DNA of 6,502 nucleotides from J061 sp003695725 [NCBI: Candidatus Schekmanbacteria bacterium] (GTDB lineage Bacteria > Schekmanbacteria > GWA2-38-11): the NCBI GenBank assembly GCA_003695725.1, contig RFHX01000015.1, positions 1 through 6,502 on the forward strand. Reading direction: 5' to 3'. The notes under the pieces are model-generated. The model did no database searches, was not told where the DNA came from, and saw only the letters and a list, made by a program, of their open reading frames with translations. Both the position numbers and the translations under genes were made by a program. Below are positions 2 through 6,502 of the stretch, one piece after another (positions within the stretch are counted from its first letter, which is position 1; each line of letters begins with the position of its first letter).

Positions 2-295
2 TTTATCCGTCACCCTGCGGCTGGTGTTGACATTGGAGCAATTGGCGGCGGACATTCCAGTCTTGCTCAGCTGAATTCTATTGCAAATCCTGTGAGAGTG
101 ATGGATCCTGATGGTTCTTGGACAGCTGGAGCATATGATGGCAATGAGACGCCGACCTGTCTTACCTGCCACAGAGCTCATGGTAATGGCAACTCCTTTG
201 GTCTCATCTTCCAAGCAGGAACATCTGCTGTAACGGAAGATGGTGATGGGTCAAGTATAAAAGACCTTTGCGCAAACTGCCATGTGCAGGGTTAA
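2..295 (+). CDS. Multiheme c-type cytochrome, C-terminal 97 residues (5' end outside window)
   Basis: The frame is open from the window edge, so the gene begins upstream and only its tail is seen. Two CXXCH heme sites are visible: CLTCH at visible residues 53-57 and CANCH at 90-94, three residues from the end. The tail follows the same plan as the two downstream cytochromes: an RHP motif near the edge, a variable stretch, then CxxCH-[RK]-A-H-G with a following N/S-F-x-L, an acidic linker, and a last CxxCH almost at the C-terminus. This marks it as a paralog of the cytochromes at 406 and 1813. By family analogy it should be exported and carry covalently attached hemes in the periplasm or beyond. 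An internal ATG at 101 or GTG at 92 is not a sensible start, because the conserved RHP lies upstream. Total heme number is unknown. Confidence 0.9.
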   Translation, partial: FIRHPAAGVDIGAIGGGHSSLAQLNSIANPVRVMDPDGSWTAGAYDGNETPTCLTCHRAHGNGNSFGLIFQAGTSAVTEDGDGSSIKDLCANCHVQG

Positions 296-308
296 TTAGC
301 TGAATGCT

Positions 309-341
309 GTGAGAGGGGGATTACCCCCTCTCACTTTTTTT
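309..341 (+). terminator. Rho-independent terminator after the first cytochrome
   Basis: A perfect 11-bp stem (GTGAGAGGGGG at 309-319 pairing with CCCCCTCTCAC at 324-334) closes a 4-nt loop ATTA and is followed at once by seven T (335-341). It lies 14 bp after the stop codon of the upstream cytochrome. The stem is long and GC-rich, so it should end transcription efficiently and separate that gene from the next. Confidence 0.93.
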
Positions 342-405: not shown

Positions 406-1539
406 ATGAGAAAGAAGATAATATTTAGCGGATTAATAGTATTGTTATATATAATGGTATTGCCTCTTTGGACATATGCGGCAAATACCTCTGTTGTCTC
501 TCAGCGCATTCACAGGATTTATAATCCAAAAAAGAAGTTGGGTTTTTCTGGTGGGAGTTTTAGAGCGATGGGGGCGCAAGGTGGCAGTATGACAGGGACA
601 TACCATAATGGAGACCAGCTTATATGCACTGATTGCCACATAATGCATGCGAGTATGCAGCACAACTATGCAGGTGGGACAGGTCCTGAAGGGAATATAT
701 CGAGTTTTCCATACAGCGGCACGCCGAATCAGAAGCTTTTGAAGGAGTCTGGGATAGGGCTTTGTGTAAGCTGTCACGATGGTAAATCTGGGATACCTGA
801 TGTAATAGGGGCTGACAGCAATGGTTTAACGGAGAGGTCAGCAGGGAAGTTTGATAATGTAGATGTATTGAATTATAAGGGGCACAATTTGAAGAGCAAT
901 CCTGGAGATCTTTGCACGCGTTGTCATTTTGGAGGAGATATGAGCACAGCAGGAGTTGAATGTATAGAATGTCATGATCAGCATGGGAATTTGAATTATC
1001 GCAATTTGAGGTGGGCGTCAGATCCCGGGAATGAGCCTGACATAAGGGCCTTTATACAGACAGGAGCGACAGGGTTGCAGCGCTATGAGAAGGCAAATGT
1101 TGGTTATGGAGCACCTGCTTCAGGAGACAATAGTTGGCGCGAGGTTACAAATATATGTATAGATTGTCATCATGCCTTTATGGATAGTAGTGATCATTAT
1201 TATACGCAGAGCAATGGTATGTGGGTAAAGCATCCTGGGACGAACAGTGAATGGGGAGCATATGCACCGATAGATGCGGCAGGAGCGAATACAGATCCTG
1301 CGCATTGGGTAGATGGGACAGGTTCAGGATTTGATATACCGCGATTGCCCTTCATTGTTGAAGGTGCTACTGATTTTGCAACAGCTACGACAGTAGCGAC
1401 AGACAATAATGTGTTTTGTTTAACCTGTCATAAAGCCCATGGTTCGGATAATTCATTCTCTTTGAGATGGGATGTAGATACAGAATCTGTCTTCAGCAAG
1501 GGTTGCAGACAATGCCATAACAATGTGGATAACCAGTAG
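406..1539 (+). CDS. Exported heptaheme c-type cytochrome (doubled-CXXCH type)
   Basis: A 377-residue protein. Residues 1-25 form a signal peptide (basic MRKK, hydrophobic core, TYA before the probable cleavage site). There is no lipobox, so the protein should be soluble in the periplasm or secreted. Seven CXXCH motifs lie at C74, C120, C170, C186, C251, C338 and C367. Eleven other histidines, several just after a motif (CHIMH, CHDQH, CHH, CHKAH), are more than enough for bis-His ligation. The CHDGK...PDV..GA stretch after the second heme and the CHKAHGSD near the end match the paralog at 1813. The third motif (CTRCH) has no counterpart there. The gene sits alone between two terminators. Its codon use differs from its neighbour: 17 of 20 isoleucines are ATA. 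Likely role is electron transfer; redox partner and exact location are unknown. Confidence 0.93.
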   Translation: MRKKIIFSGLIVLLYIMVLPLWTYAANTSVVSQRIHRIYNPKKKLGFSGGSFRAMGAQGGSMTGTYHNGDQLICTDCHIMHASMQHNYAGGTGPEGNISSFPYSGTPNQKLLKESGIGLCVSCHDGKSGIPDVIGADSNGLTERSAGKFDNVDVLNYKGHNLKSNPGDLCTRCHFGGDMSTAGVECIECHDQHGNLNYRNLRWASDPGNEPDIRAFIQTGATGLQRYEKANVGYGAPASGDNSWREVTNICIDCHHAFMDSSDHYYTQSNGMWVKHPGTNSEWGAYAPIDAAGANTDPAHWVDGTGSGFDIPRLPFIVEGATDFATATTVATDNNVFCLTCHKAHGSDNSFSLRWDVDTESVFSKGCRQCHNNVDNQ

Positions 1540-1649: not shown

Positions 1650-1693
1650 AAAGAGGGGACAAGGGAAAATATCTTTTGATTCCCCTCTTTTTT
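1650..1693 (+). terminator. Long bipartite hairpin terminator after the heptaheme cytochrome
   Basis: AAAGAGGGGA (1650-1659) pairs with TCCCCTCTTT (1681-1690). Above it, CAAGGGA (1660-1666) pairs with TCTTTTG (1672-1678), including two G-T pairs. The apical loop is 5 nt, and a 2-nt bulge (1679-1680) lies between the two helices. A T run at 1688-1693 follows. It is 110 bp after the stop codon, with no visible gene in between. It interrupts the in-frame upstream extension of the next cytochrome, so that extension is unlikely to be translated. Confidence 0.85.
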
Positions 1694-1812: not shown

Positions 1813-2856
1813 ATGGCGATGATGCAAAAAAAATTTTTTCACTTTTTGGTAGTTATTATTGTTTTTTCATTTCCAAATATATCATTTGGAGGAGATTACC
1901 ACACTTTTTCGACTCTTGTATGTTCAGATTGTCATGTGATGCATGGGTCAAAGACTCATCTCTATGACGGCACATCAGGGCCTGATACAACAATTGGAGG
2001 GCTTGCGCCCTATAATATGCTTTTAAAGAATAATGAAAATGAGCTTTGTTTGTCCTGCCATGACGGAAAGGCAAATGCTCCTGATGTCAGAGGGGCAAAT
2101 ACAAATAGTTATATAAGAGCGGCAGGAGCAATAAATGTGCTTGGCGACTCAGGGACATATGGTGAAAATAAAGGGCATACACTGGGAATTACATCTCCTC
2201 CACCCGGAGGCACCTGGACAGGCAATTCATCTGAAGGTTTGAAATGCAGTCATTGTCATAATGTCCATGGAAATAATTTTTATAGAAACCTTGTCAAAAG
2301 TCCCGGTAATGCGACTGGAAAAAAAGTTACCTATTCGACTGGTAGCGGATATGGAGGCACTGAAGCAATCCAACAAATATCTACTTCCCCAATGAGTACC
2401 CATTATGGTGCTAATAATATTTATTATAGACAAACTGCTGTGGGAACTACTGACTTTGGACTTTCAGAATGGTGCTCGGGATGTCATGAGAGCATTCATG
2501 GTCAGGGAGGAAGCGGGAATATGGGTGGATCAGCTTCAGGAGACACTTCTTCAGCAGGTGATGAATGGCTTCGTCATCCAACGAGGGATGTTACAATGTC
2601 AGAGGGAGTAACCAATAAACACATTGATTCAAATCATTGGTTTTCATCTCTTTCGTCAAGGGTGCCTGTAGTTTCTCCTTCAGGAATAATTCCCGGTTCT
2701 TCTACAGGAAGCGACAATGAGGTTTTTTGTGGAAGCTGTCATAAAGCTCATGGTTCAGATAAAAAATTTGGTCTTTTGTATGATGATGATTCAACTTCAT
2801 CTTTGGAGGATGGTACATCGATGATGCAAACCTGTCAACAGTGCCATTACAAATAG
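1813..2856 (+). CDS. Exported hexaheme c-type cytochrome, paralog of the heptaheme gene
   Basis: A 347-residue protein from the ATG at 1813; ATGs at 1819 and 1822 are equally possible, and none has a clear Shine-Dalgarno. The frame stays open back to a TTG at 1588, but that extension crosses the terminator at 1650-1693 and adds a second hydrophobic block, so I reject it. Residues 1-26 form a signal peptide (KK, hydrophobic core, SFG before the probable cut). Six CXXCH motifs lie at C37, C79, C145, C221, C306 and C341. The order and flanks match the heptaheme paralog: CSDCHVMHGS, CHDGKANAPDVRGA, an RHP between the fourth and fifth sites, CHKAHGSD, and a terminal CQQCH. The paralog's third heme is replaced here by a Pro/Gly-rich loop (TSPPPGGTW). 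Thirty-one bases separate it from the next cytochrome, so it probably leads the operon. Its role is electron transfer by inference. Confidence 0.91.
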   Translation: MAMMQKKFFHFLVVIIVFSFPNISFGGDYHTFSTLVCSDCHVMHGSKTHLYDGTSGPDTTIGGLAPYNMLLKNNENELCLSCHDGKANAPDVRGANTNSYIRAAGAINVLGDSGTYGENKGHTLGITSPPPGGTWTGNSSEGLKCSHCHNVHGNNFYRNLVKSPGNATGKKVTYSTGSGYGGTEAIQQISTSPMSTHYGANNIYYRQTAVGTTDFGLSEWCSGCHESIHGQGGSGNMGGSASGDTSSAGDEWLRHPTRDVTMSEGVTNKHIDSNHWFSSLSSRVPVVSPSGIIPGSSTGSDNEVFCGSCHKAHGSDKKFGLLYDDDSTSSLEDGTSMMQTCQQCHYK

Positions 2857-2887
2857 AAATTAAGGAATCTTTGAGAGGCGAAAAAAG

Positions 2888-4300
2888 ATGGATTATAAGA
2901 TGTTAAAAAGAATATTGATCCTATTTATTTTTCAAATTGCTATTATTTTACCGTTATATATAGCACAAGCAGGGGGTGTATATACTCAAACTAAACATGG
3001 CGATTCATCAACAGGTGTTTTGAGAGATAATTCCATTGAAAGGGCAGATTGCCGGCAATGTCATATTGAGCACAGTGCTGGTGGTACGCCGAACACTTAT
3101 GCGCTTTTTGCTCCCAATACGAATGGTCTTTGTTTTACAACATCAGGAACCAGTCCTTGCCACAATTCCGCAAGCTCCTTGGGTATATTTCAGGGCTCGG
3201 TAAAATATGGAGATTCTTCTCATGCAACAGATTCCCAGGTTGTTTGGCCAGGACCTAATCCTTCGGCAAGACCTGCAAGCGATAGCGGAAAATGTGTAAA
3301 TTGTCATTCACCTCACGGTTATGAAGATGGGAATGGCCTTATCCCTTCACAATTGATAAAGAGAGAAGAAAATCTCTGCCTTACCTGTCATGATTCGAAT
3401 GGTCCTGCTTCCACTGACATTCAAACAGATATTTCAAAAACATATCGTCATCCTGCTTCAGATTACACCGGACGACATTCAGAAGATGAAGATGGGACTG
3501 CTTCAAATTATGGTACTTCTCCTTCAAATAACAGGCATGCGGAATGCGTAGATTGCCACAACCCTCATATAGCAGCAGCAGACACTTCACCTCCCTCAGC
3601 ACCGACTATGCCTTTGTCTTTGAAGGGTGTGGGGAGAGTCAAGGTAAGCAACGGAAGTGCAGGCACTACTCCTTCATTTACATATGTTTCTCCATCAAAT
3701 AATTCAACACCCTTAAGGGAGTATCAGATATGTTTTAAATGTCATTCTTCATGGACTTCTCAGCCATCAGGACAGCCGGATTTATCAGTTAAATTTAATA
3801 CAAATAATCCATCATACCATCCTGTGGAGGCACAGGGGAAAAACTTGAATATCAATCCTAATGCATTTGTCAATGGATGGTCAGACACAGACTTGATGTA
3901 TTGTTCAGATTGTCATGGAAGCGACAGCGGTACAGCTAATGGTCCTCACGGTTCGACATATAATTTTATATTGAAAAATAATTATGTTCAAAGCACGGCA
4001 AAAAGGACAATGTCGTCCAACGAAATATGCTTCAACTGCCATCGTTATGATACTTACGGCAATCCAAATTCAAGTAAAACCGTTAGAAAATACAGCCGCT
4101 TCGAAAAACATCATGAGCATATCAAGAAACAATATACCTGTTATAACTGTCACGACAGTCATGGTTCTACTGAAAAGCCACATCTTATTGTAACTGGCAG
4201 AAATCCGGGTGTAATAGACTATAATGAAACACAAAACGGAGGTTCATGCCGGCCGACATGCCATGGGTGGGAAAGCTACAATGTTACATATCCAAGGTAA
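2888..4300 (+). CDS. Exported multiheme c-type cytochrome with 8 canonical and 2 variant heme sites
   Basis: A 470-residue protein. The ATG at 2888 has GAGAGG 9 nt upstream; the ATG at 2900 is less well placed. The signal peptide ends around AQA/GG (residues 26-28), with no lipobox. Canonical CXXCH motifs start at C55, C136, C164, C220, C282, C339, C381 and C418. Two variants may also bind heme: CX8CH at C82-H92 (following NGL, exactly where NLCxxCH occurs elsewhere in the protein) and CX3CH at C454-H459, 11 residues from the end. The N-terminal HGD...RADCRQCHxEH, the CSDCHGSDSG...GPHGS segment and the terminal CxxxCHG resemble, from memory, large Geobacter-type cytochromes. A basic, histidine-rich run (KHHEHIKK, around residues 407-414) precedes the last canonical motif and may supply axial ligands. 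It is not closely related to the two upstream paralogs. Likely function is a multiheme electron wire in the periplasm or at the cell surface. Confidence 0.93.
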   Translation: MDYKMLKRILILFIFQIAIILPLYIAQAGGVYTQTKHGDSSTGVLRDNSIERADCRQCHIEHSAGGTPNTYALFAPNTNGLCFTTSGTSPCHNSASSLGIFQGSVKYGDSSHATDSQVVWPGPNPSARPASDSGKCVNCHSPHGYEDGNGLIPSQLIKREENLCLTCHDSNGPASTDIQTDISKTYRHPASDYTGRHSEDEDGTASNYGTSPSNNRHAECVDCHNPHIAAADTSPPSAPTMPLSLKGVGRVKVSNGSAGTTPSFTYVSPSNNSTPLREYQICFKCHSSWTSQPSGQPDLSVKFNTNNPSYHPVEAQGKNLNINPNAFVNGWSDTDLMYCSDCHGSDSGTANGPHGSTYNFILKNNYVQSTAKRTMSSNEICFNCHRYDTYGNPNSSKTVRKYSRFEKHHEHIKKQYTCYNCHDSHGSTEKPHLIVTGRNPGVIDYNETQNGGSCRPTCHGWESYNVTYPR

Positions 4301-5756
4301 GAGAAAGAAAAATCAACTGGCTAATTTACCCCTTCTTTTCGTAGCTTTATTTTTCCTCTTTTTCAACACCATTGCTTGTGAGCAAATCATAACTTCTGTA
4401 AAAGAAACACAGAAAAAAGTAAAAATATCAAAAAATAGAGGAAAAGTAATTGTCTATTTTAACGGCGCAGAAAGGACAGGTATCAATCTTACTATAACTA
4501 TTGATAATATAAGGATTAAATCAGAAAAAGGGGAGTGGATAAGAGTAAGCGAAAAAAGATTTCAAATCAACTCGATCAGAACAACAGGAGAACAGGTCCA
4601 AATAGGTGAGATTTTTGCAGATGCAGGGAAATATAGAGGAATGGAATTGACAATCACAGATGCAATACTTGTTGAAGATGGCAAAGAGAAGAAACTGCTA
4701 ACGGATGGGCAGAAGAAGATAGTTTTTATTGATTTCGATTTTGGTGTATATCCTGAAATGAATACACCGCTTTTTATTGATTGGGACCCGATCCGTTCTG
4801 TCAAGGTTAACTATATCTTCGAGCCGGTTTTTAAATTATCTACAAAGAAATTTGAAATAAGGGGAGTTATGACTTATGTGTCTAATGAAGATTCAGGAAA
4901 TATCTCTTTAATTGATAGAGCATTGCGGAGGGTCGTATCTGTAATCGAAGTAGAAGAAGGACCTAAGGGATTGGTGGCATCTCCTGATGGAACAAGGATT
5001 TTTGTGGCAAATTCACGTTCTGACAGCGTTTCTGTTATTGATACTAATTCAAATAGGGTTCTCCAGCACATAAATCTTGAATCAGGTTCAGGGCCTGAAG
5101 AAATTTCCATTTTGCCTGATGGAAGCAAACTTTATATTGTGAATTATAAGAGCAACTCTGTATCTGTTGTTAATGCCCGCAGTTTTCAGCTTTTGAGGAC
5201 TATTCCTGTCGGTGTTTCTCCTATTGCTCTTGACATTGATTCGCGCGGTAGAAGGGTTTATGTAGCAAATAGCAGGTCAAATGATGTAAGTGTAATAGAT
5301 GCATTGACTGATTCAATCATAGCATCATCCATTCCAGTTGATTCTTATCCAAGAGATATAATTGTAGACCAAAATAACGGGAATGTGTATGTTGCATGTT
5401 ACAATTCGAATAATATTGATGTAATATCTCCTTCAACACTTTCCGTTGAAAAAAGGCTAAATACAGGAAATTCTGTCGTAGCTATTGTAGAAGATAGAAG
5501 GAGGCCTTTTATTATTTATTTCTTTCAGCAGTATCCTAATAGGATTGTGCAGTTTGATACAAACTCGAATCTAACTATTCATACCTTACGAATTAGAGGG
5601 TTTGTCAGAAATTTGAAGATAGATGAGGATAGGGGCAAGATATATGCCGTAATGCAAAATGAGAATAAAGTGGCAGTCATAGATAAGCTTTCAAGAGTTG
5701 TTGAATGGAAAGCGGAAGTGGGCAAAAAACCTTATGATGTGCTTATTTTAAGATAA
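4281..5756 (+). CDS. Predicted lipoprotein: N-terminal beta-rich (DUF4382-like) domain plus seven-bladed YVTN beta-propeller
   Basis: A 491-residue protein from the ATG at 4281, overlapping the upstream cytochrome by 20 nt. An ATG at 4224 is in frame, but it would bury the signal peptide behind 19 more residues. The leader has a basic run (KRKK, 7-10), a hydrophobic core (16-28) and a lipobox-like TIA-C33. Glu follows the Cys, compatible with outer-membrane sorting. Residues about 45-190 form a beta-rich domain whose EIFADAGKYRGMELTITDA segment recalls DUF4382; this match is tentative. From residue 197 to the end I can lay out seven repeats of about 40 residues, each with [IV]-[YF]-V-[AV]-N, S-x-[SD]-V-S-V-[IV]-D and a following P-x-x-[IL] turn. 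Repeats 5 and 6 are the most degenerate. No heme motif, metal site or catalytic residue is visible. Such propellers usually bind proteins or ligands. Here it may scaffold the cytochromes or barrel. Confidence 0.88.
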   Translation: MLHIQGKRKKNQLANLPLLFVALFFLFFNTIACEQIITSVKETQKKVKISKNRGKVIVYFNGAERTGINLTITIDNIRIKSEKGEWIRVSEKRFQINSIRTTGEQVQIGEIFADAGKYRGMELTITDAILVEDGKEKKLLTDGQKKIVFIDFDFGVYPEMNTPLFIDWDPIRSVKVNYIFEPVFKLSTKKFEIRGVMTYVSNEDSGNISLIDRALRRVVSVIEVEEGPKGLVASPDGTRIFVANSRSDSVSVIDTNSNRVLQHINLESGSGPEEISILPDGSKLYIVNYKSNSVSVVNARSFQLLRTIPVGVSPIALDIDSRGRRVYVANSRSNDVSVIDALTDSIIASSIPVDSYPRDIIVDQNNGNVYVACYNSNNIDVISPSTLSVEKRLNTGNSVVAIVEDRRRPFIIYFFQQYPNRIVQFDTNSNLTIHTLRIRGFVRNLKIDEDRGKIYAVMQNENKVAVIDKLSRVVEWKAEVGKKPYDVLILR

Positions 5757-5759
5757 AAT

Positions 5760-6502
5760 ATGGCTTTAAGTAATGTTAAACGAGGAATTTTAATTTTTTT
5801 TTTGTGCACTATTATTGTGCCCAATGTTTGGGCTATAGATGGTTTTTCAACTATAGATTACACCATTAGCGAAAATGAGACAGGAAAAGAATCAATGGAC
5901 AGTGCTGATTTCAATCAAGTGTACGATTTGAATGTAAATAGGGACATTACAAGTTTATTAAGATTGCGCACAAGTTTGCGCTTTACGCGCTTTGATTCAA
6001 GGACGAATACTGAAGGAGATAAGAAAAGAACTACGAATGAAGTGCTTCAGCCCTATCTTGAAGTTAATTTTTCAGGACCCAAATATAACATCAATTCAGG
6101 TTTTAGGAGAAGTGAGACATCGATTTTCAATTATGGAAGCAGTCCTGTGAAGAATATAGACAACAATTTTTTTATTAGGTCCTTTTTCAATCCCTTTCCT
6201 AATTTGCCAATATCTTTTCAATTTGAGGACAATCATTCCTATGATGACCTTAAACCAAGAAAAAGAAATGCGGAAAGCACACGAATTATTTCCAATGTTG
6301 GTTATTCTATCTATAGGTTCAATTTCAATTATAATTTCAATAAACAGCTTAATGAGAATAGGATTAATGATGTTGTTTCCAATGTTGATAACAATACAAT
6401 AAACCTTTCATATAATGATTCCTTTTTTAGAGATGTATTTACAGTTTCAACAAGTTTTATATCCAATATGACAAGGTCAGAGCAGGATGTTAATCGCGAG
6501 TC
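5760..6502 (+). CDS. Predicted outer-membrane beta-barrel (porin-like), N-terminal 247 residues, 3' end outside window
   Basis: The frame opens at ATG 5760, 3 bp after the propeller stop codon, and runs without a stop to the window edge. There is no clear Shine-Dalgarno, so translational coupling is likely. Residues 1-25 form a signal peptide (VKRG, hydrophobic core, VWA before the cut). The rest is rich in Asn, Ser, Phe and Tyr, with short strands of alternating polar and hydrophobic residues joined by polar turns, for example LRLRTSLRFTRF, YLEVNFSG, YRFNFNYNF and VFTVSTSFI. This is the look of an outer-membrane barrel with large loops. The visible part lacks the CXXC pair found near the N-terminus of Shewanella MtrB. 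Placement after the cytochromes and propeller suggests the pore of a porin-cytochrome conduit. That role is inferred from context; without the C-terminal half the family is not certain. Ten T in a row (5794-5803) lie in the signal-peptide codons. Confidence 0.82.
   Translation, partial: MALSNVKRGILIFFLCTIIVPNVWAIDGFSTIDYTISENETGKESMDSADFNQVYDLNVNRDITSLLRLRTSLRFTRFDSRTNTEGDKKRTTNEVLQPYLEVNFSGPKYNINSGFRRSETSIFNYGSSPVKNIDNNFFIRSFFNPFPNLPISFQFEDNHSYDDLKPRKRNAESTRIISNVGYSIYRFNFNYNFNKQLNENRINDVVSNVDNNTINLSYNDSFFRDVFTVSTSFISNMTRSEQDVNRE

Follow-up and report, generated by a model that had tools for sequence, protein, structure and literature searches.

What is built by a run of genes that sets several multiheme cytochromes beside a propeller protein and the beginning of a possible outer-membrane barrel? 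The question is raised by a contig of a Candidatus Schekmanbacteria genome (C15, RFHX01000015.1), which was analysed over its entire 6,502 bases and is called the window in what follows; the genome comprises 2.77 Mb in 374 contigs and is 97.8% complete. A sequence-only reading of the window had proposed an outer-membrane electron conduit of unusual composition, held at the surface by the propeller rather than by a lipidated cytochrome. We find instead that the window probably covers the central part of a cluster for extracellular cytochromes of the OmcS type (‘nanowires’), one that is divergent but resembles the osc (omcS companion) operon of Geobacter sulfurreducens. In better-known bacteria, clusters of this kind are linked to the production and export of wires of heme protein that carry electrons outside the cell. 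The full gene order is: kinase, NtrC-type regulator, receiver/PilZ protein, three OmcS-family cytochromes, nine-heme cytochrome, propeller (OscD-like) and barrel (OscE-like), continuing with two CsgG-like proteins (OscF/G-like), a peptidyl-prolyl isomerase (PPIase; OscH-like) and cytochromes of 25 and 16 hemes (OscI/J or Oet-like).

Recovery of the gene order

The order could be recovered whole because two further contigs of the same genome join the window, C332 through an exact overlap and C248 through the complementary half of the barrel gene. The reverse complement of C332 overlaps the window start exactly over 99 bases and supplies (as locus L007) the remainder of the first cytochrome gene, cyt0, which the contig start cuts so that two CxxCH motifs lie within the window; the joined reading frame has six. 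Ahead of cyt0 on C332 are genes for a histidine kinase, an NtrC-type regulator and a receiver-PilZ protein.

At the 3′ end, a DNA-overlap search for the continuation of the barrel gave no long overlap among the genome's contigs, and the complete barrel of locus L034 used as query matched the genome in the window fragment only. C248 was found through a PPIase search, and its contig end carries the complementary half. Inward from that end it encodes a 458-residue open frame, a CsgG/GNA1162-like lipoprotein, a second CsgG-like protein, the PPIase, the 25-heme cytochrome, the 16-heme cytochrome and then a protein that we take to be MreB-like. On a barrel profile built without the genome's own sequences, the window fragment aligns at positions 49-258 with 66.8 bits (best of 300 shuffles, 7.4) and the C248 fragment at 284-726 with 77.8 bits (best of 300 shuffles, 7.1). 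Since the fragments match adjoining positions of the same family profile, they most likely represent a single gene whose two complementary halves are separated by a short gap. Pairwise, the C248 half matches its homologues weakly (22-23% identity, E 3e-6 to 6e-6).

Relation of the hexahemes to OmcS

The window holds three complete cytochrome genes (cyt1, cyt2 and cyt3) and the end of cyt0 (Table 1). The sequence-only reading had counted these heme genes well: the cytochrome at 1813-2856 has its six CxxCH motifs, and of the two placed upstream, 367-1539 has seven and 2-295 is the end of another. Its estimate of eight to ten hemes for 2888-4300 (cyt3) stands at eight CxxCH and one CX3CH (CRPTCH), with heme binding uncertain for one C-X8-CH noted by eye.

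The proteins cyt0, cyt1 and cyt2 are 31-32% identical to one another (BLASTP). A profile of the window hexahemes searched against PDB finds OmcS as best match (E=8.8e-13), the next match having an E-value of 0.11. Conversely, on an OmcS-like profile built without window sequences cyt0 scores 44, cyt1 34 (33.9) and cyt2 37 bits, where the maximum of 600 shuffles preserving CxxCH is 9.5. Nine other multiheme proteins served as controls, one of them an OmcS-like positive; the other eight score from -26.5 to 26.8 bits. An alignment of 19 sequences (cyt1, cyt2 and 17 OmcS-like proteins) has twelve invariant His columns, six in CxxCH and six outside, two of these columns being conserved by choice because the 17 were selected by patterns over the first two CxxCH. 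All twelve His are retained in cyt0. OmcS has twelve His ligands, 11 from its own subunit and one from the neighbour, according to the available excerpt of PMC6584659; the correspondence is taken at the level of the family alignment, not column to ligand in the OmcS structure. A family-wide alignment search necessarily recovers the window sequences, which its query includes, and carries no weight as evidence for them. Judged by profile and alignment, the window hexahemes are distant OmcS relatives.

The same profile places cyt3 elsewhere: at -7.7 bits it is, by this test, outside the OmcS family. No cyt3 match was kept by tblastn at E<=1e-6 over 16 related loci (described below), nor found in the related genome G001 at E<=1e-15.

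The barrel

The window fragment of the barrel gene gave no match to Pfam and NCBIfam at E<=0.1, and the C248 half none to Pfam at E<=0.01. The complete homologue in L034 was modelled with AlphaFold2 (AF2) from 8 sequences (pLDDT 78.5, pTM 0.59). The model has 11 long strands, an insert of ~180 residues and 17 more strands, 28 in total by our own count from the DSSP list. The insert is kept in the genome's own C248 half, and would face outward if the N terminus is periplasmic. In L034 (1864-4086; residues ~253-437) it is beta-rich and by impression discoidin-like, with low to middling model confidence.

Foldseek places MtrB (6r2q_B) first for this model (E 4.5e-8, TM-score 0.40). In VIA-align MtrB ranks fourth (Z 16.7; 451 residues at 5.8 A) and pairs the most residues among the 50 matches listed; several TonB receptors tie with it on Z (16-18; 338-378 residues at 8-9 A). 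Rows for TonB receptors, LptD, ushers and porins among the matches listed are read as a sign of a barrel only. Outer-membrane barrels commonly end in phenylalanine, and so do the genome's own barrel and those of G001 and L034. The profile matches of the two halves and the model of the L034 homologue together assign window gene 5760-6502 to the barrel family, which bears out the barrel that the sequence-only reading had expected once the downstream gene was completed.

Propeller protein and lipoboxes

The open reading frame (ORF) at 4224-5756 overlaps the end of cyt3 and matches YNCE/lactonase/YVTN propeller models and DUF4382; the protein is 26% identical to the G001 propeller (E 3e-41). It had been called a propeller lipoprotein. 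The propeller part holds; the lipid part is less sure, as its own lipobox, TIAC, fails both lipobox patterns used, though 11 of 15 homologues pass (N-terminal stretches hand-picked). In the remaining four (L023, L026, L029 and L030) the signal is plain and lacks a lipobox Cys. On the reading given below, the propeller would have a role at the outer surface.

None of the complete window cytochromes matched the lipobox pattern in its first 80 residues, as had been noted from the sequence. The absence is what would be expected, because the hexahemes would be secreted filament subunits. That the propeller is the only lipoprotein is true inside the window; it is not the operon's only one, since C248 adds a 25-heme cytochrome (...LIISSC), a CsgG-like protein (...LFLSC) and the PPIase (...LIAGC), all lipidated-looking. 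Anchoring by the propeller is not needed to account for the missing lipoboxes, and a 25-heme cytochrome with a lipobox is encoded downstream. The 25-heme homologues in G001 and L034 have no lipobox that we could see.

Conservation of the cluster

A total of 98 genomes was searched, of which three besides the window's own fall in its taxonomic order (G001, G002 and G003). The window barrel fragment matched 3 of the 98, its own genome among them, and the barrel is present in G001 and G003. G001 keeps the same gene order from the kinase to the 16-heme cytochrome and on to the MreB-like gene; compared with the window it has two hexahemes, an extra NHL gene, and spermidine-synthase/MFS and TMTC-like genes. 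Its first hexaheme, the only one searched, matches OmcS (6ef8) over its full length (E=4.9e-113), and its second is 79% identical to the first. In G003 a hexaheme on contig C106 (the same contig as L034) is 56-58% identical to those of G001 and sits behind a TMTC-like gene; a second, on C144, lies behind kinase, NtrC, receiver and NHL genes.

Patterns from three OmcS-like cytochromes of the sister genomes yielded 16 loci; being selected by cytochrome, the set counts OmcS-like genes having companions, not companions occurring alone. The loci are labelled Rokubacteria, Acidobacteria or Acidobacteriota, Nitrospirota, Nitrospiraceae, Deltaproteobacteria, Proteobacteria, Geobacteraceae, Vicinamibacterales and Schekmanbacteria. 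By tblastn the propeller is found in 14/16, the barrel in 12/16, the NHL protein in 11/16, the first CsgG-like protein in 9/16, and the second CsgG-like protein and the PPIase in 8/16 each. Several misses are explained by contig ends: the DNA of L022, L024 and L030 stops within the propeller gene or immediately past it, and that of L036 at the cytochrome. L032 runs from the barrel through the 16-heme cytochrome, with no propeller in the stretch examined. The corresponding scan for loci with the window barrel fragment itself as query found no relative.

In all 11 loci whose DNA extends that far, the barrel directly follows the propeller, so that barrel and cytochromes do stay together in homologous loci; the separation that would have refuted the sequence-only reading is not observed. 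Because this order is shared by loci whose labels span several phyla, the association of these genes is not due to chance.

Comparison with known systems

Shen et al. 2025 reportedly describe OscD as a propeller protein, OscE-G as resembling channels and OscH as a prolyl isomerase. The osc operon and our cluster share an OmcS-like cytochrome, propeller, barrel, two CsgG-like proteins, PPIase, a 26-heme-type cytochrome and a further cytochrome, the osc order being read from the gene letters; on that analysis the letters would fit the cluster order one for one. GSU2506/2507 are annotated as a sigma-54 regulator and sensor kinase, again as in the cluster. The differences are that the window cytochromes are only about 20-28% identical to OmcS-like ones, that three tandem OmcS-family genes and a nine-heme gene precede the propeller, and that NHL and spermidine-synthase genes are absent in the stretches seen, while GSU2502 is annotated as a spermidine synthase. 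The excerpt of PMC13194489 equates oscC with GSU2501, oscI with GSU2495 and oscJ with GSU2494, and proposes that OscH serves folding, OscE/F/G secretion and OscD morphology, all for OmcS. From that excerpt and one of PMC12977616, the hexahemes are expected to be filament subunits destined for secretion, and a secretion apparatus is expected to be encoded downstream of the propeller.

OmcS itself (6ef8/6nef) shares with the window hexahemes the six hemes, the 6 + 6 invariant His and the profile match given above; it differs in that the window proteins are too divergent for detection by single sequences, and cyt1 has a seventh CxxCH. A second relative is a cassette of sulfate reducers that partner anaerobic methanotrophic archaea; Murali et al. 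2023 suggest that its OetABI and OmcS-like genes provide a conduit together with wires (PMC10553843, in excerpt). Like our cluster, it holds a barrel, two other cytochromes (OetA and OetB) and OmcS-like hexahemes (with OmcX) together, as far as the excerpt describes it; unlike ours, it is read there as conduit plus wires, and it was compared with the window by gene context.

The conduits MtrCAB, Omb/Oma/Omc and Ext consist of a barrel with one periplasmic and one surface cytochrome. They share with the window cluster a large barrel near multiheme cytochromes, and MtrB is the best Foldseek match of the barrel homologue; they differ in that the window-cluster barrel is adjoined by CsgG-like, PPIase and propeller genes.

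The system is of a known kind; what is new is its occurrence in Schekmanbacteria, with a far-diverged trio of OmcS-family genes, a nine-heme gene within the cluster and no NHL gene. On multiheme cytochromes of Schekmanbacteria nothing was found in the open-access library searched, and on extracellular electron transfer only a review on underexplored prokaryotes.

Proposed mechanism and alternative readings

As an OmcS-type cluster, the genes would be switched on by the heme-bearing sensor kinase with the sigma-54 activator. The cytochromes would reach the periplasm via Sec and then acquire their hemes, the PPIase would keep them competent for export, and the barrel, together with the CsgG-like proteins, would release them. 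Beyond the outer membrane, the hexahemes would polymerise by stacking end to end, a His ligand being donated to the neighbouring subunit as in OmcS, and the 16- and 25-heme proteins would carry electrons across the outer membrane to the filament base.

The points that weigh against this reading concern the family assignment, the cluster and the general case for wires. Identity of cyt0-cyt2 to OmcS-like proteins is only about 20-28%. Single-sequence PDB searches with cyt1, cyt2 and cyt3 gave no OmcS at E<=1, for which reason an alignment profile was needed; the best match of cyt1 was 7tfs (E=0.011), an entry titled ‘Cytochrome c’ that we take to be OmcE, and cyt2 and cyt3 had none. The highest control on the OmcS-like profile is the genome's own 16-heme cytochrome, a negative control whose 26.8 bits come near the 33.9 of cyt1; heme motifs inflate similarity among multiheme cytochromes, and weak profile scores are for this reason insufficient by themselves. 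The pattern-based choice of the 17 sequences lessens the weight of two of the His columns, and the AF2 model of cyt2 (pLDDT 38) is unusable for fold or heme stack. As to the cluster, the C248 junction is supported by complementary gene halves and synteny, with no overlapping bases; C332 has no NHL-repeat ORF between the receiver-PilZ gene and cyt0; and in G002, a genome of the same order with 99% completeness, neither a barrel nor an OmcS-family match passed the thresholds applied. The NHL gene is missing from the examined stretch in 5/16 loci also, and is common rather than strictly defining. Finally, wire formation in G. sulfurreducens is known for OmcS alone, according to the excerpt of PMC12977616, and the physiological role of OmcS-type wires is disputed in the parts available of PMC13194489 and PMC11077965.

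The serious rival, which we hold to be possible but unlikely, is a static porin-cytochrome conduit of the kind found in MtrCAB or proposed for OetABI. In it the barrel would sheathe a periplasmic cytochrome, either outer cytochromes or the propeller would be docked on the surface side, and the hexahemes would be accessory surface cytochromes. A conduit-type barrel is indeed possible: the homologue is MtrB-sized with 28 strands, where MtrCAB-type barrels are of the 26-strand class, and has MtrB as its first Foldseek match and as the structure pairing most residues among the 50 VIA-align matches listed, giant cytochromes of 25 hemes (with a lipobox) and 16 hemes are encoded after the PPIase, and an OetABI conduit has been described in such cassettes (PMC10553843, in excerpt). 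However, the two CsgG-like proteins and PPIase that lie between barrel and giant cytochromes resemble secretion, the hexahemes are without an anchor, and the excerpt of PMC13194489 reports a part for OscE, F and G in the secretion of OmcS. The structural likeness is also tempered by the tie of TonB receptors on Z and by the TM-score of 0.40 to MtrB, a shared fold showing no function. What remains of the sequence-only proposal is the conduit-type barrel as a possibility; the locus is probably to be read as the known arrangement of OmcS companions rather than as an unusually composed porin-cytochrome conduit.

Wire and conduit readings may both be possible together. A barrel that first exports the filament cytochromes and afterwards retains the base of the filament, making wire and conduit one machine, would agree with the encoding of both types of function within one conserved block, and a 28-strand barrel with an insert of ~180 residues between strands 11 and 12 would be large enough in principle; we give this proposal rather little probability. 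More specific, and distinctly improbable, is a Schekmanbacteria mixed wire of three diverged hexaheme-type subunits and a nine-heme one, whose 28-strand export barrel would stay as an electron-conducting socket, exporter and conduit being one device. That unconnected multiheme cytochromes lie beside a generic porin with no joint function is hardly credible: multiheme cytochromes do diverge fast (PMC12977616, in excerpt) and heme motifs inflate similarity, as in the 16-heme control, but the same order is met in loci labelled as several phyla and the split genes continue in order on neighbouring contigs.

Features of the window and regulatory signals

The coordinates of the window features are collected in Table 1.

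Table 1. Features located in the window, with the basis of each call
Feature	Coordinates	Strand	Basis and remarks
C-terminal end of cyt0, hexaheme OmcS-family cytochrome	2..295	+	Overlap with C332; joined frame has 6 CxxCH
Terminator-like hairpin behind cyt0, then T7	309..334	+	Terminator scan and RNA fold
cyt1, OmcS-family cytochrome, 7 CxxCH	406..1539	+	ORF opens 367; likely start ATG 406 behind GGAGGTG
Weaker hairpin and T run in the cyt1-cyt2 spacer	1650..1690	+	RNA fold; not listed by terminator scan
cyt2, hexaheme OmcS-family cytochrome	1813..2856	+	6 CxxCH, family profile, His columns
cyt3, 8 CxxCH + 1 CX3CH, without lipobox	2888..4300	+	ORF and motif count
DUF4382 + YVTN/YNCE-type propeller, atypical lipobox, OscD-like by position	4281..5756	+	ORF opens 4224; start 4281 guessed
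N-terminal third of large outer-membrane barrel, OscE-like by position	5760..6502	+	Remainder on C248, L050:12008-13384, minus strand

The two hairpins differ in how far they stand out. The fold of 300-345 has -23.9 kcal/mol (z -6.3), with 0/200 shuffles as stable, and that of 1640-1712 has -21.7 kcal/mol (z -1.9), with 10/200 shuffles at least as stable; the latter hairpin is possibly a leaky terminator. Together they suggest a stepwise lower expression of the downstream genes. The same terminator scan showed none behind the G001 cytochromes.

An exact sigma-54 pattern match lies on the coding strand of C332 between the NtrC and receiver-PilZ genes (L007:1947-1961). It is the one perfect match among seven on C332, where 3.2 are expected and 8/200 shuffles reach 7; inside the window the count is at chance level (6 vs 4.6 expected). 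G001 has a one-mismatch site ahead of the receiver gene. Each of the two also has a two-mismatch site, TGGCATAGAAAATGC on C332 and TGGCATAGAATCTGC in G001, either preceding its first structural gene or at that gene's start; such sites are at chance level in L020 overall (18 vs 15.3 expected). The histidine kinase of the cluster (L007:3392-4813, minus strand) has an Mcp40H-20-type sensor domain with a CxxCH, and may sense redox state via a c-type heme.

Related genes and neighbouring loci

Further copies of the cytochromes occur elsewhere in the genome. Locus L065 (C169, 177-1208) encodes a close second copy of the cyt0-type hexaheme (343 amino acids, 6 CxxCH), without cluster companions on its 5.7-kb contig. 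A cyt3 paralogue on contig C141 is 49% identical over 470 aligned residues; this 672-residue multiheme protein lies directly behind an NHL-type propeller gene (L006, 115-1311 and 1338-3356).

In genome G032 a cyt3 homologue (36% identity) belongs to an analogous but different gene set on contig C30 (113000-147000; L066, L068). The set includes a cytochrome of 42 CxxCH with a lipobox, an NHL-like protein, CsgG-like proteins and a B12-radical-SAM protein, together with a 568-residue protein that is maybe a further barrel (its barrel-profile score is only 11.5 bits) and a weak PorZ-propeller match under the curated cut-off. It is possibly a second, parallel type of cytochrome-export cluster.

An MFS/spermidine-synthase fusion of ~1000 residues accompanies the cluster in 5/16 loci and G001 (L020:16017-19019; L034:4416-7442; also L021, L023, L028 and L029). 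Three tandem relatives of the L034 protein that we presume to be TMTC-like lie between the barrel and CsgG-like genes of G001 (L051:5032-10816); a part of such proteins in surface glycosylation is conceivable. Directly 3′ of the cluster, the MreB-like gene is found with a similar protein of 235-237 amino acids in both the window's own genome and G001 (L050:4057-5070 and L051:18248-19264).

Significance

The window adds a far-diverged example, from a barely studied phylum, to the clusters of OmcS type. At 20-28% hexaheme identity, gene context can reveal such systems better than cytochrome similarity. The cluster thereby offers a diverged test case for whether its barrel exports wires, conducts electrons, or does both.

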